DNA of 64,000 nucleotides from Branchiostoma floridae. Lineage: Eukaryota > Chordata > Leptocardii > Amphioxiformes > Branchiostomatidae. Below are positions 2,590-26,622 of this stretch, in pieces; the first letter of the stretch is position 1; every line of letters begins with the position of its first letter. A program made the position numbers and the translations under genes. Location: NCBI RefSeq assembly GCF_000003815.2, contig NC_049989.1:21893128-21957127 (forward strand). Reading direction: 5' to 3'. The notes below the pieces were generated by a model that saw only the letters and a program-made list of their open reading frames with translations, was not told the DNA's origin and did not search any database.

Positions 2590-3452
2590 CAACTAGTACG
2601 TGGTAAATCCGAGAACGTCCAACTTCTCCAAGGTGGGGATAGAATTTCACTCAGAAGTCAGGTGAGGATTTGCTTTTCGGACCAACTTAACAAGATCCCG
2701 CCGTATCAATATGATTGTAGACATTGTGACGTTTCTTATTTTTTCATGCGGGTAAACAAATTTTCCTGTCCCCAAAGAAACGAATACTAGGTTATGCAAC
2801 TCTGTTGCTCGAACAGAAATAAGCGCTGCAGAGTTTAAACAAGAAATCTTTTAAGAAAAGCTGTGCATTGCCGCGTATTTTATGACTGAACTGCTGAGAG
2901 CGACACCTATCTTCTTCAGTAGGAAATGCAGCAAAAGGGGATATTGGAAATTTACCTCATTATCATAATTTATGTCACATGAATTATTGGCACATTAAAC
3001 AGGTTTTGTAAAACTTTTTGACCCACAATGAATATGCAATATTTTTCATTACAAAATAAGTTCCTTCTGATGCAATTTGTGATATATCGTTATATAAACA
3101 TGGTGAGTTAAAGCGTAGATTTATTACGCTGGACCACATACAGTAACATGTGTCTAGAAGAGAGTTTTAATACTCGCCTGGAATGTACCATTTTCTAACT
3201 AAGCAATGAAACTCGGCAAGGAAAGAAGGGCCTTTGGAAGGGGCTTTGGAAGGGCTGGGTTAAAAGGTCCGTCCATGGAACCATGGAAGAAAGCTGGCAT
3301 AAGGCATTGCCGCTGGCGCGGCAATGCAAAAATATCACCAAAGTCACAAGTAAAGGAGTCAGGACCTCTTCAGAATGCTCCCCACCCATTTGTAAAGATG
3401 GTTTCTTCCACATGGAGACACATGATAGGATGACCAATGGAGGGTACCATTT
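2590..3452. other. non-coding stretch upstream of the zinc-finger exon
   Basis: No gene recognised. It is probably intron or 5' flank of the zinc-finger gene and ends in an assembly gap, so an upstream exon could be hidden. Confidence 0.4.
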
Positions 3453-3603
3453 NNNNNNNNNNNNNNNNNNNNNNNNNNNNNNNNNNNNNNNNNNNNNNNN
3501 NNNNNNNNNNNNNNNNNNNNNNNNNNNNNNNNNNNNNNNNNNNNNNNNNNNNNNNNNNNNNNNNNNNNNNNNNNNNNNNNNNNNNNNNNNNNNNNNNNNN
3601 NNN
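3453..3603. other. assembly gap (N)
   Basis: 151 unresolved bases, immediately upstream of the splice acceptor of the zinc-finger exon. Confidence 1.
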
Positions 3604-3623
3604 ATTTTCTTTCCTCTTGCCAG

Positions 3624-4673
3624 ATGGAAGACTCAGCCACAGATCTGCACCAGAGCCAGGCCTGTCCAGAAACAGACGATGGAGGGACAGGTAAACTGCG
3701 TAGCCAGACTCACAGTGGGGAGAGACCACATCGGTGTCGGGAATGCGAGTTCGCCACATCGAAGATGTCCGCCCTGAAACGGCACGTAAGGACGGAACAC
3801 GCCGCGGGGAAGAGGAAACTGACGGAGAAACACTGCTGTCCACACTGTGAGTACGATGGGGCCAATATGAAGCTGCACGTCAGGACTCACGCTGGTGGGA
3901 GACCACACCAGTGCCCGCACTGCGAGTATTCAGCATCGCAGAGGGGTAACCTAAAACGGCACATAAGGGCTAAACACACCGGTGAGAGACCCTACATTTG
4001 CGGACATTGTGGCTACTCAACAGCAAATAAACAGCACCTTGTGCATCATGTAAGGGCAACGCACGGTGGTGAGCGACCATTTCAGTGTGCTGTTTGTGAC
4101 TATTCCGCTGCACGAAAGATCACATTGGAACGCCACATCCTGGCAAAACACAGTAACAGTCGGCCGTACAAATGCACACAGTGTGACCACTCTGCAGTGA
4201 CCAAAAACAATTTAAAGGTTCATATGAGGTCACACACCCATGAGAAACCATACAGTTGTGAGATGTGCGATTTTTCTACCGGGCATAAGGGCAGTTTGAA
4301 TAAGCACATGGCAACCCACACTGGGGAGAAACCTTACAAGTGTGAAGTCTGTGATTATTCCACTGCTCATATGTCCAGTTTTAAGACACATATGGCCACT
4401 CACACCGGTGAGAAACCTTACAAGTGTGGAATTTGCTGTTATTCTGCAGCTCATATGTCCAATTTGAAACGTCACATGGCCACCCACACTGGAGATAAAC
4501 CATACAAGTGTGACATATGTGACTATTCTGCAGCACAAGTGTCTAACTTAAAGTATCACATGGCCACTCACACAGGTGAGAAACCTTACAAGTGTGGAGT
4601 GTGTGACTATTCTTCAGCACGAATGTTTACTTTAAAGCGTCACATGGCTTCTCACACCGGTGAGAAAAGCTAA
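3624..4673 (+). CDS. C2H2 zinc-finger protein, terminal exon
   Basis: Single open exon of 349 codons. A pyrimidine-rich tract and CAG (3611-3623) sit directly before the first ATG, so 3624 may be the first base of an internal or last exon rather than the true start. Residues 1-30 are acidic and polar. Eleven C2H2 fingers follow to the C-terminus, joined by TGEKPY-type linkers in the last half, and the protein stops just after HTGEKS. Finger 2 is short: nine residues instead of twelve lie between its second Cys and first His, so it may not fold. Fingers 8-11 have helix contacts (-1,2,3,6) H-S-S-T, H-S-N-R, Q-S-N-Y and R-F-T-R. Tandem fingers of this type bind DNA in the nucleus, usually as transcriptional regulators. 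No KRAB, BTB or SCAN domain is visible here. Orthology not assigned. Confidence 0.9.
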   Translation: MEDSATDLHQSQACPETDDGGTGKLRSQTHSGERPHRCRECEFATSKMSALKRHVRTEHAAGKRKLTEKHCCPHCEYDGANMKLHVRTHAGGRPHQCPHCEYSASQRGNLKRHIRAKHTGERPYICGHCGYSTANKQHLVHHVRATHGGERPFQCAVCDYSAARKITLERHILAKHSNSRPYKCTQCDHSAVTKNNLKVHMRSHTHEKPYSCEMCDFSTGHKGSLNKHMATHTGEKPYKCEVCDYSTAHMSSFKTHMATHTGEKPYKCGICCYSAAHMSNLKRHMATHTGDKPYKCDICDYSAAQVSNLKYHMATHTGEKPYKCGVCDYSSARMFTLKRHMASHTGEKS

Positions 4674-4962
4674 AAACACTTGGAAGTTGCTTTCATAACG
4701 ATGAATGAATAGATAAATAGAAGAATAGAAGTAGTATGATAACGTGAATGAAGAATGAGTAAAGAGAATACTCATGAATGTTCACACCAAACTTGTTTTC
4801 AGAGCATTTATTCATAAGTACGAACGTCACACTACATCCTCAAAGGAAGTCGTTTGGTTTATATGGATGTTGTGACAGTTAGCCCAGCCTCCTTCGCTGA
4901 CTTTTAGCAGTGCTGGCTTTTACTTTATGGGTGAGCACTTGTTTGTGATTCTAAGGTAAAAT

Positions 4963-5688: not shown

Positions 5689-5791
5689 CTATATTCTGTT
5701 CATCAGCAGCACCAGCTCATCGTACATAGCAAAGGCCAGGGCCACCTCACTGGAGGAGCGCAGCAGTCTCGGCTGGATCCCCTTGTAGAAC
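5689..5791 (-). CDS. citrate carrier alternative terminal exon 6c
   Basis: Minus-strand exon preceded by a C-rich tract and CAG. Spliced to exon 5 (15357), it completes an Ala codon and continues FYKGIQPRLLR, then SSSEVALAFAMYDELVLLMN, then RI and stop. That aligns with the sixth helix of SLC25A1 and gives a 332-residue protein. It keeps both arginines of the PRLxR motif. It replaces VCLD by SSSE and replaces the Lys of the cytoplasmic-side D-E-x-x-K motif with Leu. It is the most distant of the three last exons (9.6 kb from exon 5). ATTAAA on the minus strand at 5652-5657 could be its polyadenylation signal. It could instead be a decaying duplicate, although the frame is open and in phase. 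Confidence 0.65.
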
Positions 5792-6000
5792 CTGGGGGGT
5801 AGAAGGGAGGGGGTCAGGAAAGGGGGGAAGGTCAGGAAAGGGGGGTAGAAGGGAGGGGGTCAGGTCAGGAAAGGGGGGTAGAAAGAGGGGGGTGTCAGAT
5901 AAGGGGGTAGACGGGGTGTCAGGTAAGGGGGTTAGAAGGGAGGGGGTGTAACAGAAGGGTGTAGAAATGAGGGGGTGTCAGATAAGGGGGTTATATGGGT
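5792..6000. repeat. G-rich minisatellite abutting exon 6c acceptor
   Basis: Tandem G-rich units (AGAAGGGAGGGGGTCAG and GGAAAGGGGGG variants) begin at the 3' splice site of exon 6c. Read in the sense of the gene (-), this is a long pyrimidine tract. On the + strand it has many runs of four or more G and could form G-quadruplexes. Confidence 0.8.
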
Positions 6001-8628
6001 ACAGGAGTAGGTGGTGTATGAACTTAATGAAGGATTGTGTAGGGTGTTTGTCAAACCAAAATCATCAAGCTGCTCTCTGTGCATTTCCAGACAGGCTGAA
6101 GTCACTCCTCGTGCATTTATCATCTTGGGGTACTTTCTTTCGACACGTCTCCAAATTCTTCAGGTTAAGGAAATACATCTGCAAGGCAATTTATTTTGCC
6201 CTCGCGCCATATCTGCGGCATCTTCTCAGAAATGACGCAAACTGTTTATTTTGCCATGGATAATCTTTTTTTTACTAAAAAAGCACATTAAGTCATTTCA
6301 TCTTCAACACAAAAACACAATGACAACGATGCACCTCCAGACTCCATTTATTTGCCAGTTTACAGACATGACATGACACAGAAGTTCATCTTCCACTGGA
6401 CAACTAGGAACTACCTACAAAAATACCACATAGATTATTTACTATACATGTTGATTTCTCTTCAATTTTCTATTCCCAGCAGCAAGAAGCAAGAAAGTAC
6501 ATTGTTTAAAAAGTGTTGAATGAGAGAAACATACACAGACTTTTGCAAGAAATTCATCTGAAATCTACATGCAGTACATGTACAAGGAAAGGAATGTTTT
6601 AGATTGAGTCAACAGATGCAGAAATTTAATGTTAAGCCAGAACCAATCAGATGGCTTCATTCCATAAACCAGTGTTCTGATTGGTTGTGACATCATTAGT
6701 TTGGCTGTCACTCAATTTACAATCTGATACATTACAGTGTCCCTAAAACAGTAACTTATGAAAAATATGTTTGTGCAACAACAAAAAGTTGCTCAAAGCA
6801 CACTTATCCACTAAGATTAATTTTCTGGACATTTTTTTTACATTTCTATGGAAGCAGATTCATACATCAATATGGCCCTAACTTGCTGTGCCATCCACTA
6901 AACATTAGTTGTTTTATATAATATTAGAAAACATATTTGGAAGAAATCTCAAGCAGAGTGTATCTCAAATTGGCCACACTAACTCAGCTGCTTGGTTCAC
7001 AGCAAAACACAAACTGAAGAAATTAAGGCTTATACTCCAATTACTCCAAACCCATCTAGGTGCTGTTTGCTTTGGAAGTCTCTTGGACACTGGAAATGGG
7101 CAAAACAAAGTCTATTTTTTCGTCTTAGGATTTTGAAGAAAATAATGCTGGACAGGAAAATCCAGTATGTACTGATTTCCATTTCCACATCTTAACTGAT
7201 CACCAGAACATCTGATCATGACGTTTGGAATATAAAACGAGCAGATGGCAGACAGAGTTGCAAGTCGGCCACAGCTCAGCACAAATGAATGACTACATCT
7301 CCTATGGATTGAAAATCTAGACAAAATGCACTCAACAGTGTTTGCTTATCACAGAGTCCTGATGACTGGAATAGTTACTGTGACATTGACGCCAGGGCTA
7401 TCTCCAGCTTGACTTGTTTTCCCACTATTTGGTAATGTTTTTTCCATCCCCTCCAATTGGTTGGGAGCCCATGTTGTTAACTTGTAAATCTGTCATGATT
7501 ATGAAAACACAATTTTTTTCAATTTTCTGCACTGAAGTTCAAATGTCTGGACAGATAGGGCGAAATGTTTGTTTGCCCCAACAGGCAGATTTCCGTCCCA
7601 GGACGGAGGGACGGGTCCTAGAGACAGATAGACATCCTCACACAGCACCTATACCAGTGGCAGGCCTCTGACTTCAACAGTTACGGGTACATCTGCACCC
7701 TCACACGGCACCTGATAGTTGCAGGCCTCTGTTTCGGTTTGAAAGACGGTAAAGTTGGGCATTTTGCTGCATCTTTTCTTTGATGCCAGACATCACATCA
7801 CACCACGTTTGACACACTGACATCCCCACCCAAGGCCACACCAGTTTACTTTGTTGGTTCTCATGCACCAAAAATGTACTGGGAGATCAACTTGAAGTTG
7901 AGGAGAAGAGTTGCACCTTCGTGCACACAGTTCAAATAAAGCCATGCTTTAACAAAGCTCTTCCCCAATGGTCATGTTTCAAATTTCTCATGAGAACAGA
8001 CAAAATAACTTTGTGTGACCTTGGTGTACATTGGACCCGACACCCTGAGTTACTACATACAACGCCCCCCTCCCACCCCTGCCCCCTCCAAAACCCCTGA
8101 CCCCCTCCCACCCCTGCCCCCCTCCCATTAACACCCAGGAAAGCCCATAGGTATACAGATAGAAACGCTGAGGATTTACATGAAAGCTACATGTACATTT
8201 TCATCACAAAACTTTCCAGTAAGGATTTCACAAAGAAAATATTTTCTTGTAATAAATTTTCACCAAACATTTCCACACTTCAGATCTGTTGTTGAATTCA
8301 ACAGAAACAGTCTCTTTGGACGATTCACTCAAAAGAATTTCCGATCAGATATACAGAAATTCTGATAAAATCCAAAACAAGATCCAAAACCTTTCACATC
8401 CAAGTCTTACAACTTTTCACGAGCTCTGCAAAACACTCAATTAGCATGAAAGATAAAACACGGACTAAACAATTGTACGTTTTGTCCCACCGCTTACTGT
8501 CTATTGCACATTCTTACAAAGCTTTAACCTCCTCTCTGCTAAGCCAGTCTTTTGGCACAACGTCTGTACTGGTCACAGGCTTACAAGGCAGGAGGATGGT
8601 TAAAAAATAATAATATCATAGAATCTAC
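6001..8628. other. non-coding; intron or possible long 3' UTR of SLC25A1
   Basis: No coding exon recognised. AATAAA on the minus strand at 6347-6352 could end a transcript using exon 6b, which would make much of this stretch 3' UTR; that is inference. A C-rich tract lies near 8065-8130. Confidence 0.4.
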
Positions 8629-8630
8629 TA

Positions 8631-8809
8631 CAGTAGAAGCCATTTAATTGCACAGCTTATTTGCCAGCGTATTTCGTGCAATTATCCGGCTGGTGCAATA
8701 ATGCGAAGTTATCCAGCTGGACCACACCAGTTTGGGATTTTGGGATTCCGTGCAGTTAACAGAAGTGTGCGTTAATCCATTGTGCAATTAACTGGCTTCT
8801 ACCGTACTG
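8631..8809. mobile_element. MITE with CAGTAGAAGCC-type termini, TA target
   Basis: Inverted ends CAGTAGAAGCC and GGCTTCTACCGTACTG continue inward as ATTTAATTGCAC and GTGCAATTAACT. It is flanked by TA at 8629-8630 and 8810-8811, which fits a Tc1/mariner or pogo-type non-autonomous element. 179 bases, no coding capacity. It overlaps the next element by a few bases. Confidence 0.7.
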
Positions 8810-9011
8810 TAAATCCATTTACTTTTGCGGAGGTTTTATTTTGCAGATGGAGGGAAAGTGTTTATGCTGCATGTAAAATCCTCGGTTAAAGTGATTCTGT
8901 AGTACGGCAGTGATAAACTCACCGGAAATGAATATTCCTGGTGCAATAGGTTTTTAGTGCAAAGTTAACTGCAAACACAAAACCACCGTGAAAGTTTGCA
9001 GATCTACAGTA
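8805..9011. mobile_element. MITE of the TACTGTAAAT family, copy 1
   Basis: Ends TACTGTAAATCC and GATCTACAGTA, with interior TTTTGCGG and CCGTGAAAG. Two related copies lie at 45122-45333 and 51874-52068. Confidence 0.65.
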
Positions 9012-9582
9012 CTTGCACCTGAGGCCTACATATCAGTGTAGTCTACAAAATTAGAGTCTGTTCCCATTTATAACACTTAGTAGTGCATAGATTACAATTA
9101 AGCCTACAAACACATCTGCACAGTGTCATGTAACATAGGATGGAGGTGGCAGTGGGCTTTTACAAGAGAATAAAACTACCTAAATCTTTAATAATTTTCA
9201 TTATGGAATACATCATAAAATGTATATTTCTTAATTATCGGCACTCCAGCTAAAGTATAACAAAAGATGGTCATTGGATTCTACAACAATTAATACAAGA
9301 ATTAATACAAGAAATTTCTAAAGATTTTTTTTCTTTGCTACAATTCTCAAAAAAGTTGTACCCAACAAAAATTACATTTTCATAGGTTTCATTTTCATTC
9401 TATGTTAATATATCTGATTATTGTGATGGCAATATTAGCCAAAAAGAAAAAAAGAAAAATCAAGTCAAGAGTTATAAAAGGTGTTATACAAACCATGCTG
9501 AAGTCGTCACTTTCATGACAGGTTTTCATGGCACGTGGATTTCCACAGGTTATGGTGACAATGATCACATTTCCATGCCACG

Positions 9583-9734
9583 TAAGACCACACCAATTTT
9601 ATGTCTTGGTTTGCCGAGTCTTTGCTCTATATTTTTCTTTTGTAATTCTAAAAAAAGGGCGACAACTCCCGTTCACAAATTTCACGTTATTTTTGACTTG
9701 ATTGAAAACCAATAATAAAATTGGAGTGGCCTTA
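9583..9734. mobile_element. MITE of the AAGGCCACACC family, copy 1
   Basis: Terminal inverted repeats of about 30 bases: TAAGACCACACCAATTTTAT at the left and its imperfect inverse ending GGAGTGGCCTTA at the right. Other copies are at 48395-48783 and 62689-63057. Confidence 0.7.
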
Positions 9735-9845
9735 ACAAAATTAAGATATTACTGATGAACGTGCATGAAAAACCACAGCACAACCGACGGACGCCGTCGT
9801 CATGGAAACCACCAAAACGACCCGATCCGTGCATCCGAGTTACGG

Positions 9846-9960
9846 TTAGTCGGTCTTCCAGACCACGTTTAACATCTTCACGACTTCCTCGTAAATAACG
9901 AACACCATGGCAACGTCCAAACACACGCGGCTCAGCCGGGGAAGCGTGCCCTTGTAGAAA
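9846..9960 (-). CDS. SLC25A1: citrate carrier terminal exon 6b (canonical-like)
   Basis: 115 bases in the minus sense after GTCCGCAG. It completes Ala299, then [20 protein letters not shown], then [17 protein letters not shown] and stop. It is nearest to the vertebrate C-terminus (KVWKTD). Arg307 and Arg310 correspond to human Arg282 and Arg285. It has the same length and phase as exon 6a. Confidence 0.9.
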
Positions 9961-12900
9961 CTGCGGACGGAACGGAGAGACCCATGCATCAATGCAACAA
10001 GCATAACTACAACCATGCAGCAAAATAAGTTACAACGTCAAGACTACGTCACACACATGGCTGAAAAGCAGAATGGAGAATTACAATATGTAGGTGGAAA
10101 TGTTGATTGTAAAGCACTGCCTCATTCACAAAAGTATCACAACAAGCAAAACTCCAACCAGGCAGCAAAAAAAGTTACAATGTCAAGACTACGTCAGGGC
10201 GGCAGCGACACCACAATCACACATGGCTGGAAGGGAGATGGAGAATCACAAAATGCTGGCGGAAGTGTTCATCGCACAGCACTATACAGCATTCACAAAG
10301 GCATCACAACAAGCAATGATTACAGCACATGTGCAAGTATATGGTGCAAGAAAAATAAGTTACAACGTCAGGATTATGTCAGGGTGGCAGTCACATGATA
10401 TTACACATGGCTGAAAAGCAGGTGAAAAGTTACAAGATGCAGACAGTAGTGTAAAAGTTGATTGTACAGCCCTCCTCATTCACAAAAGCATCATCACAGC
10501 AAGCAATGTTTACAGCACATGTGCATAGAAGGCAAGCAAATGCTGTATCTCAATTCAAATCTAAACATACACAGATCAACCAGCCTAGGGAATGTGACCT
10601 TCCAGGAGCAGTGAAGGAAAGGACAACACTTTCATCCATCCTGGCATTATTTCTGCATGCAAATTTGGGACATCCCAAAGAAATTCAATGTGTTAGCAAG
10701 GATGTGTAAGTGTCACGTGTCCTAAACTCAGCAAAACCATGGGGTATTCCATAGACACTATGCAGAAAATGGCAGGGAATGGAATGGATGGGATCAAGAA
10801 AAGGAAGCGAAGCCAGACTCACAGCAAGACATGCGTGAAAAGTAAGAAATCAGGAGCAACAGACGTGTTAAAGAGACACCAGCAAAACCACCACAGGCTG
10901 AAAAAATGATGGGCACTCCTGGACCAACATGCACCAAAGGACCTGCCAATAGTAATATTGTGATTATCAAGTCCTAAAGATGGTGTTGGTATGTGGAAAT
11001 ACTGAGCTATGATGTTTCATGTTAACAAACGTCAGTGTTTTTTCTATCCTGAAAGCAGCTTATAATTTATTGTTTTATGTATGGGTATGTATCTGTTCTC
11101 TATATGCCACACTGGTTATAACTATGTCAAAAACCTCTAGAAAGTCCTGTGCATACTGGAATCATGTACTGTGATATGGACATTACTCAATACCGCCTAC
11201 TCTCCTTGTAGAGGTTGGTGGGGAAAATCGTGACCTTTTCATTATACCACTGTATGACTTCTTATTTTATCAGCCTCCTTATAAAAAAGACGGCATATAA
11301 GGAAAAGGTCACGATTTTCCCCACCAACTTCTGCTTGGAGAGTAAATACCTCCTACACTGTAGTTAACTAAGTTCCTATGTGAGTTGAGCTGCATATTTT
11401 CCACTGAAATCTAGTACACTGAACTGTCCTCATCATGGCACACTGATGGTGTGCAAATTATCGGCTTGGAAGTGATCTACACATGATGATACTGTTTGTG
11501 TTATATTTTGATATGTGGTATTGAGCTTCAAACTAAGTATGGATCTGTGTCAGTGATGCATAAGTTTTTCAGGCCACCAAACAAATGAAAGCAAGAAAAA
11601 CCCTGGACAAACATGAGAAAAAACCTTTTAATCTGTTATTTTTTTCATACAGATTTTCTGCCAGTTACAAAGACATTACAATGCGTCAATGATAGAGAAG
11701 AATCAATGTCAACGATGTCCAAAAGAATCAAACTTTACATCAACAATGCTTTTGTGTCTTCCCAAGAGTGCAACAAATTTGGAGTACTTTTAGACATCTC
11801 CCTAACAGTTAGTGTGTTTGTATTGAGCTCAAGCAAGAACAACTTCATTTTTCACCAATGAAATCACCAAAACCTACAGTATGCCTGACCTAATGTCCTA
11901 AAGTAAACATTATTCATTTTTCTAAAAAAAATAAGACTTTCCGTGCCTTCGAATTCATTGATGATGACTTTGAGTCCGTTCGTCTACTTTAAGGATTTTT
12001 GTGATCATTCTTTAGGCCACTATATCAAGCATTCAAATCCCCCAAATCTTACAAGACTGACCAAAAATAAACCGCAGTATCTGAGACTATATAACAATAA
12101 GATCCACAATAAGACAATTTTTATTATCAGCTTGTTCAAGCTTGACTTTGAATCCATTCTGTTACTTTTAGTATGTTCAAGGTCATTTCAAGGTCATTTA
12201 TCAGGCCAGACAACGGCAATGAACTTGACGGCCTCCTCGTAAATGGTGAAGACGAGGGCTGCGTCCAGACACACCCGGCCGAGGCGCGGCACGGTCCCCT
12301 TATAGAAGCTGTGAGCGGCACACACACACACAGACACACGCAACGTTAGCCGGGAGAGAGAGAGAGAGAAAGGGGGAAGAGAAGACAGACGACAGAAGAA
12401 CAGCGTTCATCACTTTACGTTTGGAAAGACTCTGGGAATGGGGAACATCTGATCAACCTGAAGTCTGATATCAGAAACACTTGCTTCTAGTGACGCTCAA
12501 GAAGAGTGATGGATGAATGAATGAATGAACTTTATTTAACTGGATGTCACTTGAAACTTTCGGAAGTAAATCTACATTTTTTATTCAGTTGAAGAGAATT
12601 GTATTTGAATATTGTTAACCTGGTTGTCTAACCTTCATAAACACTTGCTACTGAATTTAGTTTTAAGTGGGGAAAAATACTCCTTGTGGAGAAGCCATTT
12701 TTGTTAATTAGCTCTAAGATTAATTAATTTCAATTAGCGCCAACTCCCTAAAGTCTGCTACCATTATAGTCACATGACTGACCTATGTCCTTTCCTGACC
12801 CCATGTGACGCTAATTCACCTTTATCCGCGGGGTAACCTATAACCATTGTAGTGAAAAACAGTATCTATGGAGATCAAAGTGACGAACAGTGGTGTCAAA

Positions 12901-15900
12901 TTGCAATATTTTCAATGCAATATTTGGAAAATTTTGCAGTTTGAAACCACAGTACAGCGACTTCAGTTCATTTTCTTAGATACCCTTTATAGGTAGGTTA
13001 CCCTGCAGATAAAACTGAACTAGCATTACTAGTATCAACTTTACATCACCCCCTTGCTAATGTCTATGTATTAATCAATTGAATCTTCCTGGCTGACTTC
13101 GGTCCCCTGGGTGGTCCTCTTGGGCAGGTTTTATTGTACTCCTATCCGCTGGTTCCATATTTACGTTTTACAAAAAGAGATATTTGTCTTCCACCCTCTG
13201 GTAAGTTTGGCATGCATGTCCAGAGCCTATCTACTCTGCCCTGAGTCAGAAAGGTTTTCATCTAAGTTTCTAACCAGATTTTTCCAGATCCCAGTTTCTT
13301 ACCAAATGTAAAATGGAAACAGACATAACCACAGCACAGACCCAGGAAGGTAGAGACAATGAGAGTTCCGTTCTCCATGTGTCACACCAATGGGTCCTTT
13401 AATAATATGCCTCCAACACAAACATAAGTTTTCACAAACAAATCTTATGAAATACGTCCCAACAAATTTTGACAAAACAATTTCCCATACCAATCAGCTA
13501 ATGTTTTGAGTAGAATTCCTGTGTTTTAGGTAAAACTTGTATGAATTTCATCACATTTATATGAACACCTGTAAGGCACCCATTCATTAGTGGTGCATAG
13601 GGCTGGGTATCGGTACAGCGTACCGGTACAAAACCGTTTTTTCTTATTGGACCGGTACAGAAAAACCGGACCTGAAAAAATTAGGTGGACCGGATGTTGG
13701 ACCGATTAGAAAATTAACATATTATTTGATCAGGCATTCACACGTTTTGGCGCTTGCAGTTGGAAGAAAATGTCAAGAGTGAAGTAGAGTAGAGTTTATA
13801 GTAATTTCTACCAAGGTTTACAGTCAATCTTACAGGTGCAGTTAGCGTTGTAGGATTGTAAAACGCCAGTGTAAGTCTAATACTCCACCAAACAGATTTC
13901 TTTGTAGTGAAATGGACCATTGGTATGAGTCATACTGAATCAGGTCCAGGTTCAGGTCCGGACCTGGACCTGATCCTCTGGACCTGAACCGGACCTGGAC
14001 CTGAATTTTCTGTACCGGTACCCAGCCCTAGTGGTGCACAAAACAAAAAGCCAGTATACGGAGGCTGCTGTACTTGGTGACACAGGGACAGAAGACTCCA
14101 CGTCTCTACCTTAATGGATCTTTTAAACAGACAACAGAACAGCAGAGATAGGAACACACATGCACGACACAGGAGGACTCTAGTTCTTTATACTAGAGTG
14201 GGTGGACTCATTCTTTAGCTAACTGACATCTATCGCACTGCTGTCATCCCTCAGTAAGACATCGGGAGCCACATAGTTCTTGTTTAGAACCTCTATCAAG
14301 CCATTAAGGCTAGAGGCCACTGAAGAAGTTGTAAATAATGAAACTCGTTCAAAAGGCTGAATAAAAGTTCTTAACTAGAACTTTCCAGATGTCTCACTGA
14401 GGGATGACTGTTGTGTGATAGATGTCAGTTAGCTGAGAAATGACTCCACTCTACTATATACTATTAGTTCTTTAATACATACTGTCGCTCAGCTGAAATA
14501 CTCTCCATGTTATTTTCTCTCTTTTATCAGGAGTGAGTTGGGCTGTTTTTGTCTTAGTAGACCTAACCATATTTTTTTTCAAGAAACTTTTTCTTTTTCT
14601 TCTGTTTTTTTTCCAAACCCATTTGACACTTATGGAATGCATCTTTTCCCGTTTTTAAGACATTGCTGCTGTATTCTTAAGTTTCCAGGCATCTACAAAG
14701 CGTGTAATGTTGAACAGTAAAAGTTTATGTGTGGAAATCAAAAGTGAAACACGTAGCGGACAATGAAGTGCGGACAATTGCAATATGACTATAAAGGGTA
14801 CAGCAATAAAAGTATTCAGCATAATGATATCTACAAAAAACACTAAAATGTGACTTGGTTATGAGTGATGGATGAGTTCAGATGAGAACAAAATGAAGTC
14901 TGGAGGTGCAGTTCTAGTAAAAGTTGCTAGACTACTGCAAAGTGAAGATAGAATGATATTGGGGAGGGGCAAAAGTCAGCATTCAGAAATGGTGAATTTG
15001 TTGGACAAAGTTTGATGTTGAGTTCAGCACTGATCGCATTAACATCTTTAAACTCTGGGTAATAATGAATGCCACAAAGCTGAGTTTTATGAATGCCATC
15101 TGTGCACACATCATTAATTTCTATCTGTTGCCTTGAACAAAAATTGGATATTTTGAAGAAGTGCAGTCCATCAAAGTTTTGCATTTCCAAGTTTTGACAG
15201 TAGATGGGACAATGGTCTGTTGTCTTGGAATGACAGAATTCAATGACAACATTGTGTCTTCTAGCACTGAACTGTGACCTTGTAGTTTCATTTCCTATAA
15301 CAGATGTCATCCATAAAACTCTGTGTGGCTCTAGAACAGAAGGAGAGTCTACTCACGCCCTGGGTCCTTCGTGCTTGGCGATCTTGACTGCGCAGTCCCA
15401 CGCACTCTTGTACTTATGTGCCTCTAGACCCTGCCAACAGAAAAACACTTGTGTTGGTATCACACAGAAGTTTCACAGGTTGGTCTCACATGTGTGTTTC
15501 ACAAGTAGGTCTCAGGTTTCACAGGTTGGTCTCACATGTGCCACTTACGAAAGGTAGTGAAACATCTGACTATTTCCAAAATCAATCCAGTTGCTTGAGT
15601 AACTGCTTTTTGACATAACTTATTACCTGGATGTCTAACCTTCACCAACGGCTCTCTTGCTAATGTCTGACTATTTGCTATTTAGCATGTCTTATCACCT
15701 GGAAGTCTAATCATAGTTGACATGGTCTGACATGTGTGTTTTACAGGAGGGTCTCACATGTCAGTTTCACAGGCATGACATCACTTTTATATTCAGAGGT
15801 TTTACAAATCCAAGGTCTCACATGTCTGTTTCACAGGTGGGTCTCACACTGCTTTACCAGTTAAGCAAAACAAACAAACAAAAACAAGCCTGACCTGCAT

Positions 15901-18900
15901 CCTGGTCTTCACTACGTCGATGGGCGTGTTCCCGAAGACGCTGGCTGCGCCCGCCGTCGCGCCGAACGCTGCCGTGATGAAGGGGTTGATGTTTTTGCTG
16001 AGGTCGTCGCCGCGGTACCAGTCCTTTAACGAGTTCATCACCAGGAAGCGGATCGCCTGATTGGACCCCTGCTTCAGTATCGTGGGAAACAAACCTTTGT
16101 ACGTTCCACCGATTCCTGGGGAAAACAAAGGCTTGTCAGAGCTGTCAGTCATGGCGGTTACCATGGTGATGACCAGGAATAGTTTTTTCCTCATTGGATC
16201 TAGACAATCATCATGGCAATACATGAATTTTTTAAAGTGCGTACTATACAGCATCAGGAGCTCTGGCTTTTGGAATAGGTACTGGTCCAGAAATACTCAA
16301 GGCCATCAGTGATGTCAATCACCTCATGGTTGTCATGTTGATTGAGTTATAAGCTATCAGTTGGCTGGTTACAAGGTTTTAAGCTAGAGTGTGCAACTTT
16401 CTGACGATAATCTTTGCTTGAGGTGAGACAAATTTCCCTTGTCCCATTGTCATTGTTGGTCCCTTTGCCCCTTTCCTGATGTCCCTCCCACTAGACTTAC
16501 CCTGTTCCCTGACGATCTCCCTGACCCCGTGGAAGAAGCCCCTGTACTTGGGGTTGCCCGACGTCTGGTCGTGGATGAACTTCACCTTGACCGTCTCCAT
16601 GGGCGTGACCACGAACACCGCCTCCGACGCGCCCGCCATCAACCCGCATAAAAAGCTGTTGCCCTTTGACAGTTGACCTCTCTCGTTACGCATCATGTTA
16701 CTGAAGAACTCAAAAGCACCAAACCTGTAAAGGGTGAAAGGTCAGGGGTGACAGGTCAGAATGCAGAGGTCAGGAGTTAAAAAAAGATACTATCTGCATC
16801 AACGACACGAGGAAAAGCAAATGTCCAGGGTGTCATGTTCAAGTCTTCTAGCGTTTTCTTATCTGAATGAATGAATGAGTGAGTGAATGAGTGAGTGAAT
16901 GAATGAGTGAATGAGTGAATGAATAAATGACTGAATAAAAGAATGAATGAGTGAATGAGTGGATAAATATTAAGTGAATGAATGAATTCAATATATGCAT
17001 AAATGAATGAATGAATGAATGAATGACTGAATAAACAAACGTGTAAACCCCTGTCCGTACCTGACTGCTGCCTGAATGAATGAGTGAATGGATGGATGAA
17101 TGAAGAAATGAATGAATAAGTGAGTGAGTGTGAGTGAGTGAGTGAGTGAGTGAGTGAGTGAGTGAGTGAGTGAATTAATGAATAAAAGAATGAATGAATA
17201 AACATGTAAACCCCTATCCCCACCTGACTGCTGCCTTGGGTATGGACCCGTAGACGAGCGAGAATTAATGAAGGAGTGAATGAATGAATGAATGAATGAA
17301 TGAATGAATGAATGAATGAATGAATGAATGAATGAATGAATGAATGAACAAACATGTAAACCCCTGTCCCCACCTGACTGCTGCCTTGGGTATGGACCCT
17401 TAGACGAGCGAGAATGAATGAATGAGTGAATGAGTGAATGAATGAATGAACAAACATGTAAACCCCTGTCCCCACCTGACTGCTGCCTTGGGTATGGACC
17501 CTTAGACGAGCGAGAATGAATGAATGAGTGAATGAGTGAATGAATGAATGAACAAACATGTAAACCCCTGTCCCCACCTGACTGCAGCCTTGGGTATGGA
17601 CCCGTAGACGAGCGAGAATAAATGACTGAATGAATGAATGAATGAATAGAATGAATGAATGAATGAACATGTAAACCCCTGTCCCCACCTGACTGCTGCC
17701 TTGGGTATGGACCCGTAGACGAGCGATAATGAATGAGTGAATGAGTGAATGAATGAATAAAAGAATGAATAAATGAAAAAACAAATGTGTAAACCCCTAT
17801 CCCCACCTGACTGCTGCCTTGGGTATGGACCCTTAGACGAGCGAGAATGAATGAGTGAATGAATGAATGAATGAATGAATGAATGAATGAATGAGTGAAT
17901 GAATGAATGAATGAGTGAATGAACAAACGTGTACCTGACTGCTGCCTTGGGTATGGACCCGTAGACCAGTGAGCTGAGCCCGCGGTACAGCCCGCGCACG
18001 CCGTGGTCCCGTACCGTGGCCTGCACACAGTGCACCGGCCCGCGGTACTTGGGAGGGTTCGCTTTCTCGTCCAGCTGCAGCTGTGTCTTCACGTACTCTG
18101 TGGGGAAGGTGATGCAGATCTCGATCCCGCCCGCAATGCCACCTGGAACAACAAACAAACAAACAGGTGAGTACCCACCCGAAATGCCACCTGGGGACAA
18201 CAAACAAACAAACAAATAAACAATCGGGTGAGTAAACGTGCTGCGTTTTCACATACTCCGTGGGGAAGGTGATACAGATCTCGATCCCGCCAGCGATGCC
18301 ACCTGGGGACAACAAACAAACAAACAGGTGAGTACCCACTGCGATGCCACCTGGGACAACAAACAAACAAACGGGTGGGTACCCACCCGTGATGCCACCT
18401 GGGACAACAAACAAACAAACAAACAGGTGAGTACCCACCCGCGATGCCACCTGGGACAACAAACAAACAAACAAACAGGTGAGTACCTGCCCGCGATGCC
18501 ACCTGGGACAACAAACAAACAAACAAACAGGGGAGTAACCACCCGCGATGCCACCTGGGACAACAAACAAACAAACAAACAGGTGAGTACCTGCCCGCGA
18601 TGCCACTTGGTACAACAAACAAACAAACGGGTGGGTACCCACCCGCGATGCCACCTGGGACAACAAACAAACAAACGGGTGGGTACCCACCCGCGATGCC
18701 ACCTGGGACAACAAACAAACAAACAGGTGAGTACCCACCCGCGATGCCACCTGGGACAACAAACAAACAAACAAACAGGTGAGCAAACATTGTATATCTG
18801 TATACCAACAAATATTCGCTCAATATAATGTATCTCCCTGACTCTCAAACATTTCAGCAAGAAGTTATGCTGAAAACTGAAGGCTGAAAGGAAAATTTGA

Positions 18901-24900: not shown

Positions 24901-26622
24901 CTCCATCATCATCATCATTTTGGGCTATTGATGCAGTCCTTACCAGGCTCCACAGGTTGCTGGGAAAATAGTAGAAATCCCTCAAATAGACAGGTAATAT
25001 ACCAGAGGAGTTAGCTGACTTGGTTTGCAAACTGTTACTTTTTTGTTCGGATAATCCCTCTGTCATGTTACTCGTCTATTTAGCCAATTTCTAGTACTGT
25101 ATTTTTCCAGTGACCCTTGGAGCCTGGTGGAGATAATTATTGATGGACTCAATATTTTGAATCTACAAAAAAAAGTAATAGTAAATGAAAACACAGAAAA
25201 ATCACACCACATTCACCTGTAACTCTTCAATAACATGTTTATGTAGTCTGATACTTTATACAAAAGGTGGTATTATCAGCCTGATCTCCACCAATCAGCA
25301 ACTGCCATGCAGGCGACGCCCACAGTACTTAAGTGGGTCATTGAACTCAACAGGCCTGCTTGACAAGAAATCTGCATTTACAGAACATTTAGTCTGATTT
25401 TCTCACAACATTTGGGATAACCACCATAAACACCATCGTTTTGAATGTAGCAAAATCCTTGTAACCTAAGGGGTGACCTTATGTTGCCTTCTGACATCAT
25501 CACTAATAAAACAAGTGTAATTATAGCCATGGGACATCTCATGTGGTTTGACTGCACAGGATCAAATTTGTAACGACATAATCCTCAATTTAGAACCATT
25601 CTTCTGTGACAATATTGGGCTGGGATTGTCTGAGAGACCAGAAAGGTCCTCCTGGTTGTAATATATTACTTCGAAGGCAACATGTGAGGGAGGGGGATGA
25701 ATGGAAAATTCCACCGTCATGGGGCATAGGGGCGGTCCGACTACTGTTCAACACTGATTAATACTAGTAACTCATACAACAACGGCACAAGGACACAGAC
25801 TAACTCAACATCTTAACTTGCTCTCTCTAACATCTCTAAGATCCATTTAAAGTTTAAGTCTAAACGCAAACGGTACGTGGATTATCCGAGAGTTCGTGCG
25901 TGCTTTTGGGCCGTTTTATGCGCGGCTACTCTGATCTGAGTGATTGTTTTGGTAACGGGGGGAGGGCGGAAAATTCCCCCGAGAGAACACGCCCACTTTT
26001 TAATTAATGCAAGATTGTCTGAGCAAACAGCAACTTTGTGGGGTGTTGATTTGTAGTAGTAACAAATCTCAGGACATGGGAAATGTGGGCAACATAAACT
26101 GGGTGACAAGATTAGGACTATTGTACACGGATGTGTAGGATTTACGAGGACTTCTAAAAGTACGCACCCGTGCTTTAATTAAAGTCATACACACATCATT
26201 AGCGCTCTAGGCAAGACTTCAAGGATAAATTTACAACTGCCCAAACCTCCCTTTCTTTTCTGGGCTTGTAAAACTGCTGTTTACTCAAGATATTTCCAAG
26301 AAAATCCGGCGGAAACAGGAAAACCCCAAACCAAACTTGCTTGATCACGGTGATTCGAACTCAGCCATGACCGTCGTGTGTTGGAGTTTGTAAAAGACAC
26401 ACGTAAATGTCATCCCTGGATATGTAAACCATGAAGATAACGTGAGTACGTACCCGCTATGATAGCCTTGCCAGGGTGGGTGAGCTTGACGCTACCTGAC
26501 GGAGCCGCGGCGCCCAAGTTCCGCGGATGGGCCGTCAGGACGGGGTTAACCAGCGACGTGGGGTAAGTCCTGGGCGCCGTGCCGCCCATTCCCGTCAGGA
26601 TAGGCGAGTCTCTCCGATCCAT
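9846..26622 (-). CDS. SLC25A1: mitochondrial tricarboxylate (citrate) carrier, exons 1-5 plus 6b
   Basis: Joined on the minus strand from 26622-26454, 18142-17935, 16724-16501, 16115-15895, 15430-15357 and 9960-9846. All junctions are GT-AG and in phase, giving 336 residues (human about 311, with a shorter N-terminus). Three mitochondrial-carrier repeats are visible. The PX[DE]XX[KR] signatures are PTEYVK (70-75), PMETVK (167-172) and PIDVVK (265-270). Stretches such as [29 protein letters not shown] and [10 protein letters not shown] are almost identical to vertebrate SLC25A1. By family knowledge it exchanges citrate/isocitrate for malate across the inner mitochondrial membrane, supplying cytosolic acetyl-CoA for lipid synthesis. 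With exon 6b the C-terminus is NVVWKTD, as in vertebrates, so I treat 6b as the canonical end. Exon 2 is flanked by arrays of its own edges. The gene is head-to-head with TEKT1. Confidence 0.93.
10008..10530. repeat. three tandem copies of a ~165-base unit
   Basis: Three copies starting near 10015, 10170 and 10350 share AAGTTACAACGTCA, ACACATGGCTG and CATTCACAAA. They lie just upstream, in gene sense, of exon 6b. No exon sequence is recognisable in the unit. Confidence 0.8.
10531..11197. other. intronic sequence of SLC25A1, nothing recognised
   Basis: Between exons 6a and 6b. No coding or RNA feature seen. Confidence 0.5.
11198..11344. mobile_element. MITE with long inverted repeats and 9-base target repeat
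   Basis: Arms of about 40 bases: TACTCTCCTTGTAGAGGTTG at the left, and at the right the inverse ending CTTGGAGAGTA. Flanking AATACCGCC and AATACCTCC match at 8 of 9 bases, suggesting a 9-base target duplication as in Mutator-like elements. Confidence 0.7.
12120..12125 (-). terminator. polyadenylation signal AATAAA for exon 6a
   Basis: On the minus strand, about 70 bases after the stop codon of exon 6a. This supports exon 6a as a genuine terminal exon. Confidence 0.55.
12194..12308 (-). CDS. SLC25A1: citrate carrier alternative terminal exon 6a
   Basis: 115 bases in the minus sense after CGCTCACAG. Spliced to exon 5 it reads A, then [20 protein letters not shown], then [17 protein letters not shown] and stop, giving a 336-residue protein of the same length as with exon 6b. 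It retains the PRLGR motif and the E-x-x-K pair. Differences from 6b lie in the membrane face of the helix (Val-Ala-Met to Ala-Ala-Leu) and at the C-terminus (WPDK for WKTD). It is the terminal exon nearest to exon 5 (3 kb). A minus-strand AATAAA follows at 12120-12125. GC-rich coding composition and conserved sense argue against pseudogene status. Confidence 0.88.
12811..13023. mobile_element. MITE of the CTAGTTCACCTTTATC family, copy 1
   Basis: Begins CTAATTCACCTTTATCCGCG, then GGGTAACCTATA; the right end is the inverse, with ATAGGTAGGTTACCC and ending GAACTAG. A sister copy lies at 18933-19141. Confidence 0.65.
13024..13597. other. intronic sequence, nothing recognised
   Basis: No exon, RNA gene or clear repeat seen between the two flanking MITEs. 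Confidence 0.45.
13598..14030. mobile_element. hAT-like MITE
   Basis: Terminal inverted repeat TAGGGCTGGGTATCGGTAC at the left and GTACCGGTACCCAGCCCTA at the right. It is flanked by a perfect 8-base target duplication GTGGTGCA at 13590-13597 and 14031-14038, the length typical of hAT elements. The interior has repeated GGACCTG and CCGGTACAG motifs. 433 bases, no transposase. Confidence 0.88.
14191..14464. mobile_element. MITE with ~75-base inverted repeats
   Basis: Left arm TACTAGAGTGG... AGCTAACTGACATCTATC; the right arm is its imperfect inverse. A 10-base direct repeat TAGTTCTTTA occurs at 14181-14190 and 14465-14474, suggesting a 9-10 base target duplication. A partial relative of one arm occurs near 32400-32475. 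Confidence 0.7.
14475..15356. other. intron 5 of SLC25A1, nothing recognised
   Basis: No further exon seen between the MITE and exon 5. Confidence 0.45.
15466..15850. repeat. scattered short repeats near exon 5
   Basis: Variants of TTTCACAGGTTGGTCTCACA recur between exons 5 and 4, tandemly near 15466-15540 and singly near 15730-15850. They do not contain exon sequence. Confidence 0.6.
17061..17934 (-). repeat. array of SLC25A1 exon 2 donor edges in intron 2
   Basis: In gene sense, the last ~40 bases of exon 2 (codons for [13 protein letters not shown]) with their 5' splice site and the start of intron 2 are repeated downstream. Full copies have exon-end equivalents at 17807, 17689, 17578, 17476, 17374 and 17224, with a truncated one at 17061; the true exon ends at 17935. 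Full copies carry GTGGGG donors where the true exon has GTACAC. They are separated by variable (TTCA)n microsatellite, spacings 102-150 bases. Three copies change the Tyr codon TAC to TAA. The long open frames rich in HSFIHSF over this block are microsatellite artefacts. Confidence 0.92.
18143..18790 (-). repeat. array of SLC25A1 exon 2 acceptor edges in intron 1
   Basis: Twelve copies in all, including the true one, of the 3' splice site plus the first ~12 bases of exon 2 (GTGGCATCGCGG). Exon-start equivalents lie at 18142 (true), 18190, 18302, 18350, 18398, 18450, 18502, 18554, 18606, 18654, 18702 and 18750. Spacing is 48 or 52 bases, a difference of one AAAC unit. Each copy carries a T-rich tract from (GTTT)n and nearly all keep CAG. 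GTGGGT follows the 12 bases in several copies and resembles a donor, so each could in principle act as a 12-base in-frame micro-exon. Confidence 0.92.
18241..18302 (-). pseudogene. partial copy of SLC25A1 exon 2 (first ~21 codons)
   Basis: Inside the acceptor array, one unit extends through the first 21 codons of exon 2 ([21 protein letters not shown] in two pieces, [10 protein letters not shown] and [11 protein letters not shown]), then diverges. Compared with the true exon it has seven nucleotide differences, all synonymous. No clear donor follows, so by itself it would not make a full exon. Confidence 0.8.
18933..19141. mobile_element. MITE of the CTAGTTCACCTTTATC family, copy 2
   Basis: Left CTAGTTCACCTTTATCTGCG; right inverse ending AATAAAGGTGAACTAG. 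The interior pairs ATATCCGTTGTT with AACAACGGATAT. Confidence 0.75.
19724..20190. repeat. tandem duplication of ~230 bases
   Basis: Two copies (about 19724-19955 and 19956-20190) share GACATTTAATCTCAG, CACAGGAATATATC, an ATATAT run and GTGTAAAACAACATC. Located in SLC25A1 intron 1. Confidence 0.85.
20191..21289. other. intron 1 of SLC25A1, nothing recognised
   Basis: No exon or clear repeat seen. Confidence 0.45.
21290..21900. repeat. interleaved duplications in intron 1
   Basis: CTGTAGTCCAAATTGATRGC with TTAATAAACACTGGCAACC occurs near 21310 and 21435, with a related piece near 21740. GCATGGAACGGAATTTTC occurs near 21540 and 21820. Confidence 0.7.
21901..23094. other. intron 1 of SLC25A1, nothing recognised
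   Basis: Apart from a short hairpin (GTTGCCCAC / GTGGGCAAC near 22594-22616), no feature seen. Confidence 0.4.
23095..23173. repeat. two adjoining palindromes
   Basis: 23095-23117: 10-base arms GTTCAGTATA and TATACTGAAC with a 3-base centre. 23115-23173: perfect 29-base arms around a single C at 23144, the left arm beginning AACAATGGACTCACAG. Could extrude as cruciforms. Confidence 0.9.
23562..24490. repeat. tandem duplication of ~465 bases
   Basis: GAGTTTGGCTCTCTGACGTA begins both copies (about 23562 and 24028). They stay aligned through ACCAGTGGGAATGTCACT and AATTTCAGTTTCYAGAACTC, with many point differences. Located in SLC25A1 intron 1. Confidence 0.85.
24491..26453. other. intron 1 of SLC25A1, nothing recognised
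   Basis: No exon seen. A GAGTTCGAATCAC-like stretch (minus strand, near 26345-26360) resembles a Pol III B-box, but no tRNA cloverleaf could be drawn. Confidence 0.4.

Follow-up and report, generated by a model that had tools for sequence, protein, structure and literature searches.

Can a single mitochondrial carrier gene complete its product with more than one sixth transmembrane helix? The question is raised by a locus of the lancelet Branchiostoma floridae. We find a complete SLC25A1-type (citrate carrier) gene on the minus strand of the window, the whole 64-kb stretch of DNA that was analysed (G000:C11:21893128-21957127), in which exons 1 to 5 are followed by three homologous last exons, 6a, 6b and 6c. 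Reading from the sequence, we consider it likely that this is a single SLC25A1-type gene whose three alternative last exons stem from old duplications of exon 6, are spliced from exon 5 and have a poly(A) site each.

Anatomy and identity of the gene

All exons are read on the minus strand. The coding part of exon 1 (26454..26622, donor gtacgt), identified by motif scan and translation at 26622-26454, lies beyond the exons named in the initial annotation. A similarity search of the window gave exon 2 (17935..18142, ending ...PKAAVR), exon 3 (16501..16724, FGAFEFF...REIVREQ) and exon 4 (15895..16115, GIGGTYKG...DVVKTRMQ), and the last common exon is exon 5 (15357..15430, donor gtgagt); the spliced frame is open throughout. 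The last exons 6a (12194..12308) and 6b (9846..9960) both have 115 bases and encode 37 aa, and both are identified by acceptor, frame, homology, Pfam profile and codon fits. Exon 6c (5689..5791) has 103 bases and encodes 33 aa, FYKGIQPRLLRSSSEVALAFAMYDELVLLMNRI, followed by a stop; it is identified by a very pyrimidine-rich acceptor, by homology and by the profile and drift tests described below. The three are spaced as whole exons at 2.3 and 4.2 kb. We take 6b to be the canonical end of the protein, as its WKTD ending agrees with the vertebrate SLC25A1 sequence.

Every intron of the gene starts with GT and ends with AG. Spliced to 6a, 6b or 6c, exons 1–5 give a single open frame with one terminal stop, of 336, 336 and 332 aa, respectively. 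Exon 5 ends in GC|gtgagt and the acceptors read ag|C for 6a, ag|T for 6b and ag|G for 6c, so that an Ala codon is completed at each of the three junctions, with FYKG next. The positions, phase, lengths and stops that the initial annotation had given for the three exons agree with this, each having an AG acceptor in the same phase. Its term "mutually exclusive last exons" holds in that they are alternative and homologous with one stop each, but they do not behave as mutually exclusive internal exons: 6a, 6b and 6c each carry a stop at the coding end and are thus terminal for coding, which makes them strictly alternative last exons. Similar length, the same splice type and phase, a stop codon and homology, the marks of alternative homologous 3′-terminal exons, are all present.

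Against the Pfam Mito_carr profile (PF00153, cut-off 22.3 bits) exon 5 joined to 6a, 6b or 6c scores 45.6, 46.9 and 47.6 bits, so that each combination belongs to the carrier-repeat family. The protein, we take it, strongly resembles human SLC25A1. One piece of the human sequence, GTVP(R282)LGRV, could be read from a primer (PMC11759043), and this one piece matches 6a exactly; an equivalent of R282, a residue needed for transport, is present in 6a, 6b and 6c. No sequence named SLC25A1 is among the 10 PDB sequences matched. The identification of the gene as SLC25A1 is very probably right. The earlier description is supported in that a gene of this type has three alternative last exons, and in that helix 6 and the C-terminus are encoded by each of them.

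As had been noted before, each last exon has its own acceptor, and a candidate poly(A) signal lies near 6a (AATAAA at 12125). The pyrimidine richness of the acceptors was compared with that of the other YAGs in the stretch from 15350 to 5000 (293, with the three last-exon acceptors left out): none of these was as rich as 6c, 2 were as rich as 6b and 70 as rich as 6a. The tract of 6a is UG-repeat-like and ordinary in pyrimidine content, while that of 6c is the richest of the three. The AATAAA for 6a (12120..12125, minus strand) is about 70 nt past the stop and is followed by a U/GU-rich stretch. By motif scan on the same strand, the first of seven candidates for 6b is an ATTAAA (9187..9192) and a distal one is an AATAAA with GU-rich sequence downstream (6347..6352); for 6c there is a candidate AATAAA at 4807..4812. 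The stretches after 6a, 6b and 6c hold 3, 7 and 4 AATAAA or ATTAAA candidates, in numbers to be read in the light of how common these hexamers are by chance in AT-rich DNA. Two TGCATG motifs lie just upstream of the 6b acceptor (9983..10019, minus strand, first bases 10019 and 9988), and on the minus strand from 27000 to 4500 this motif occurs 11 times against about 5 expected. We assume TGCATG to be an Rbfox-type motif; that Rbfox binds here is a guess.

We infer the use of 6a, 6b and 6c in RNA, and likewise how one of them is chosen and what the exchange does. The pre-mRNA would be cleaved and polyadenylated after 6a, or splicing would continue to 6b or 6c, and the last exon would then be chosen as the proximal 6a poly(A) site competes with onward splicing.

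Origin and maintenance of the last exons

Exons 6a and 6b share 25 of 37 residues, 6b and 6c 15 of 33, and 6a and 6c 14 of 33. Thus 6c is the most divergent: 18 of its 33 residues are unlike those of 6b, and it is without the last four. Even between 6a and 6b one third of the bases differ and silent sites are saturated. The likeness is much greater than chance would give: a search of the 64-kb window with 6b recovers 6a at E=3.6e-15 and 6c at E=2.9e-7. The genome searches covered 513 Mb in 431 contigs. With 6c as query (E up to 10; 3 candidates scored) they returned 6c itself, 6b at E=0.019 and 6a at E=1.6, and no more; with the full protein they gave 27 matches at E<=0.001, those outside the locus being 25–43% identical, and the 513-Mb genome yielded no further SLC25A1-like locus. 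The best ungapped score to 6c is 81 for 6b, 64 for 6a and 52 for the best of 60 carrier segments chosen from 111 family matches across the genome. As 6c is nearer to 6b than to any of these segments, it most likely descends from an SLC25A1 exon, and an origin of 6c by recombination from another carrier was rejected (60 segments at 52 or less against 81). At the DNA level the exons 6a and 6b align with 72% identity over 106 bp; comparison of the flanks gave a single 14-base match between 6a and 6c (E=0.045) and none between 6b and 6c. Searches for a second haplotype copy, made with 6c and 6b only, found none. Ancient duplications of exon 6 would have given rise to 6a, 6b and 6c.

Are the copies maintained by selection? 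In pairwise codon fits omega=1 is rejected for every pair (2dlnL 32.4 for 6a–6b, 21.3 for 6b–6c and 20.8 for 6a–6c), in fits where silent sites are saturated and time is at its bound, so that the omega values are not readable as numbers, and which cannot tell the constrained member of a pair. On a three-branch tree under F3x4 the all-neutral model (lnL -327.3) is far worse than the one-omega model (-303.3). Comparing free with fixed omega on the 6c branch, neutrality is weakly rejected under F3x4 (2dlnL 5.0) and not rejected with equal frequencies (1.65), and letting 6a alone or 6b alone be neutral places the fit 1.9 or 0.8 lnL units under the one-omega fit (F3x4); branch-specific codon models on three sequences have low power.

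Because the codon tests are weak and ambiguous as to the member of a pair, we ran drift controls, asking whether neutral drift could have left 6c carrier-like. Scored alone against Pfam Mito_carr, 6a, 6b and 6c reach 19.1, 20.5 and 21.4 bits, so 6c scores as well as the other two. The controls started from a 6a/6b-like ancestor (a majority sequence of 6a and 6b in which ties were settled in favor of 6c or of the human sequence) and drifted, with stops excluded, to the same 17 amino-acid changes as 6c; none of 100 reached the Pfam score of 6c, and 3 matched the family at all. A local helix-6 profile was built from 41 of the 60 carrier segments, picked by eye for the carrier register and located by their match to 6c, which is a mild bias; on it 6c scores lowest (18.5 bits, with 22.4 for 6a and 22.8 for 6b), and its score is reached by 6 of 3000 drifted sequences, while the score of 6a is equalled by 62 of 3000 sequences derived from 6b by drift. 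At an assumed indel:substitution ratio of 1:8, the frame stays open to the divergence of 6c in 42 of 4000 neutral runs. In codon choice relative to exons 2–5, resampling from the base composition of the window did as well as 6c or 6b in none of 5000 cases and as well as 6a in 22. Part of this coding-like choice could be feigned by local C-richness; against that, sixteen of the 33 codons of 6c end in G, a base that makes up 14% of the 6c flanks. Taken together, the sequence tests favor function, strongly for 6a and 6b as a pair and moderately for 6c. We judge function to be very likely for both 6a and 6b and probable for 6c.

Two other accounts of the extra exons bear on this point. The working alternative last exons could be 6a and 6b only, 6c being a decaying copy or one too rarely used to matter. 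Its divergence (15/33 to 6b and 14/33 to 6a), the loss of the last four residues and the rejection of omega=1 on its branch under just one of two frequency models would fit such decay, and so would its setting: 6c is embedded in C-rich minisatellite repeats and adjoins two degenerate relic copies of its own tail in the C-rich sequence downstream (DLVLMMNKI, 5593-5567, and NDLMLMMNRI, 5462-5433, minus strand), and amphioxus is described as making exon-border copies without disturbing splicing (PMC3087553). Against decay stand a Pfam score at least as high as those of 6a and 6b, which no neutral control reached, an intact frame and stop, coding-like codons and the richest acceptor tract, and we judge this account unlikely on balance. 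That the extra exons are remnants of a whole-gene tandem duplication, or part of another carrier gene downstream, we hold to be very improbable. Tandem gene arrays can pass for alternative exons (PMC3228551), but the window contains no second copy of exons 1, 3, 4 or 5, only border fragments of exon 2, so the locus is not a decayed tandem gene; also, 6c is nearer to 6b than the 60 carrier segments are, and the genome shows no other SLC25A1-like locus. A whole-gene tandem duplication is thereby largely refuted.

Helix 6 and the effect of exchanging it

The three isoforms would share helices 1–5, with helix 6 and the gate end swapped. Common to 6a, 6b and 6c are, in order, FYKG, PRL, R, A, F, Y, E and V. 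All isoforms therefore retain the equivalent of R282, the arginine that follows it (R285 by count) and, at the cytoplasmic end, Y-[DE]-E, and much of the remaining helix 6 and of the tail is changed. By alignment with the ADP/ATP carrier we take the arginine after R282 to be contact point III. In 6c, VCL is changed to SSS just after this arginine and D to E, the lysine after the motif is lost and the tail is shorter. The change R282H in human SLC25A1 is described as transport-dead (PMC11759043), and contact point III on helix 6 is described as nearly always positive and as having no role in specificity (PMC7611774). With both arginines and the Y-[DE] pair retained, all isoforms should be able to bind citrate, and the changes in 6c should act on gating and packing.

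The initial annotation had proposed that alternative sixth helices could change substrate choice or regulation. We favor the second part, and do not regard substrate as the first choice: as contact point III is described as not setting specificity (PMC7611774) and the arginines are kept, altered gating, kinetics or 3′UTR control is likelier than a new substrate. Most likely the isoforms would perform the same citrate/malate exchange with different gating, rate or regulation, and would have specific 3′UTRs as well, without a new substrate class. One gene would then probably yield three differently gated carriers.

It could still be argued that the swap of helix 6 alters substrate preference and that isoform 6c represents a second transport activity, since exchange of helices between carriers has been proposed as a source of new specificities in evolution (PMC13385207) and 6c alters the very residues that adjoin the contact-point III arginine. 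Given that the contact point on this helix is reported not to confer specificity (PMC7611774), that both arginines are conserved and that all isoforms have the same helices 1–5, including contact points I and II, we find this quite improbable. More weight should be given to the idea that selection acts mainly on the choice of 3′UTR, through stability, localisation or microRNA sites, and that the three helices do not differ in function. Each last exon is followed by poly(A) candidates of its own, DNA similarity does not extend into the flanks beyond the exons 6a and 6b except for the one 14-base match, and in the fly, transcripts of sesB differ in the 3′UTR (PMC7504413). However, 6c and 6b differ at 18 of 33 residues, which is more than a choice of 3′UTR needs; we take this idea seriously but think it rather unlikely, and prefer differently gated isoforms that also differ in their 3′UTRs.

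The locus appears to be a natural controlled version of helix exchange, with one protein body and three sixth helices. Comparing the three isoforms would reveal the part played by helix 6 and the gate end in citrate transport, which supplies cytosolic acetyl-CoA. A 2026 analysis has proposed that exchange of helix-sized segments between carriers creates new specificities (PMC13385207), and deficiency of the human citrate carrier leads to combined D-2- and L-2-hydroxyglutaric aciduria (PMC7226361).

Related genes and neighboring sequence

How unusual is such an arrangement? In SLC25A3, the phosphate carrier gene, exons IIIA and IIIB are an internal pair, and the short form of UCP3 simply does without helix 6. 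SLC25A3 resembles the lancelet gene in having alternative exons, and the two isoforms that result are distributed differently among tissues (PMC7226361); the lancelet gene differs in that its alternatives are three last exons, which include helix 6, the stop and the 3′UTR. UCP3 is likewise an SLC25 gene, with long and short transcript forms in humans (PMC4048162), but in the lancelet SLC25A1-type gene helix 6 is replaced rather than missing. Within the same gene family, human SLC25A1 (CIC, pmCiC) and fly sea also have alternative transcripts: the two human isoforms are described as differing only at the N-terminus, where the first exon varies, and the four mRNAs of sea as encoding one polypeptide (PMC7504413). 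The earlier statement that vertebrate SLC25A1 isoforms differ at the N-terminus thus holds for these two human isoforms. A class of homologous 3′-terminal exons with multiple poly(A) sites is recognised, human capping protein beta being an example, and such exons share with 6a, 6b and 6c a similar length, the same frame, homology and a stop in each exon (PMC3228551); the lancelet gene differs in having three copies, which encode a transmembrane helix and gate end. Among the titles and abstract openings that we searched, with few subscription journals covered, we found no report of alternative helix-6 exons in a citrate carrier. The earlier remark that no SLC25 gene is known with swapped last helices needs care all the same, in view of the two forms described for UCP3 (PMC4048162) and of a second lancelet gene with two last exons.

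This second gene lies in the same genome (G000:C171:263500-272500) and resembles the SLC25A1-type gene in its duplicated homologous last exons: two of them, 62 aa as translated, stand about 2 kb apart on one strand. We label it SLC25A19-like by presumption. Unlike in the SLC25A1-type gene, the duplication is recent. The copies differ at 14 codons, 9 of them silent, and four of the five non-silent differences fall in the middle of helix 6. In stretches of 1500 and 1600 bp they align over 226 bp (about 91% identical) and 100 bp only, which speaks against a mere haplotype duplication. No AATAAA or ATTAAA was found after the second last exon within the stretch scanned. It is a tentative and doubtful extension of these observations that lancelet carriers use their last exons as exchangeable helix-6 cassettes, three in SLC25A1 and two in the SLC25A19-like gene, and that the SSS helix of 6c gives distinct kinetics, coupling or substrate range; if true, a shared five-helix body would be completed by differently gated sixth helices.

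Amphioxus genes are described as containing "mirage" minisatellites, in which tandem copies span an exon–intron border with splicing undisturbed (PMC3087553). Exons 6a, 6b and 6c are whole exons and are not of this kind, but both borders of exon 2 are. At 18750-18190 (minus strand) the intron 1/exon 2 border (GTGGCAT after a cag-type site) recurs in ten short minisatellite copies, in addition to one longer copy and the real exon 2; this is a mirage array with many pseudo-acceptors. A copy of the first 21 codons of exon 2 (18303-18241, minus strand) has seven silent and no amino-acid differences from the real exon; the chance that all seven would be silent is about 4e-5, and a duplicate exon 2 that was once functional may have left this copy as its stump. 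At 17844-17223 (minus strand) a second mirage array repeats the end of exon 2 together with its donor (|gtgggg) six times, and three of these copies have an in-frame stop.

On the plus strand, 3429-4673 holds a zinc-finger-like protein frame with many C2H2-like repeats (by eye) and a run of N; it ends about 1 kb from 6c and is thus convergent with the SLC25A1-type gene. Between 6a and 6b, at 11215-11330, an inverted repeat consisting of GGTGGGGAAAATCGTGACCTTTTC and its complement, about 60 bases apart (by eye), is perhaps a small mobile element.
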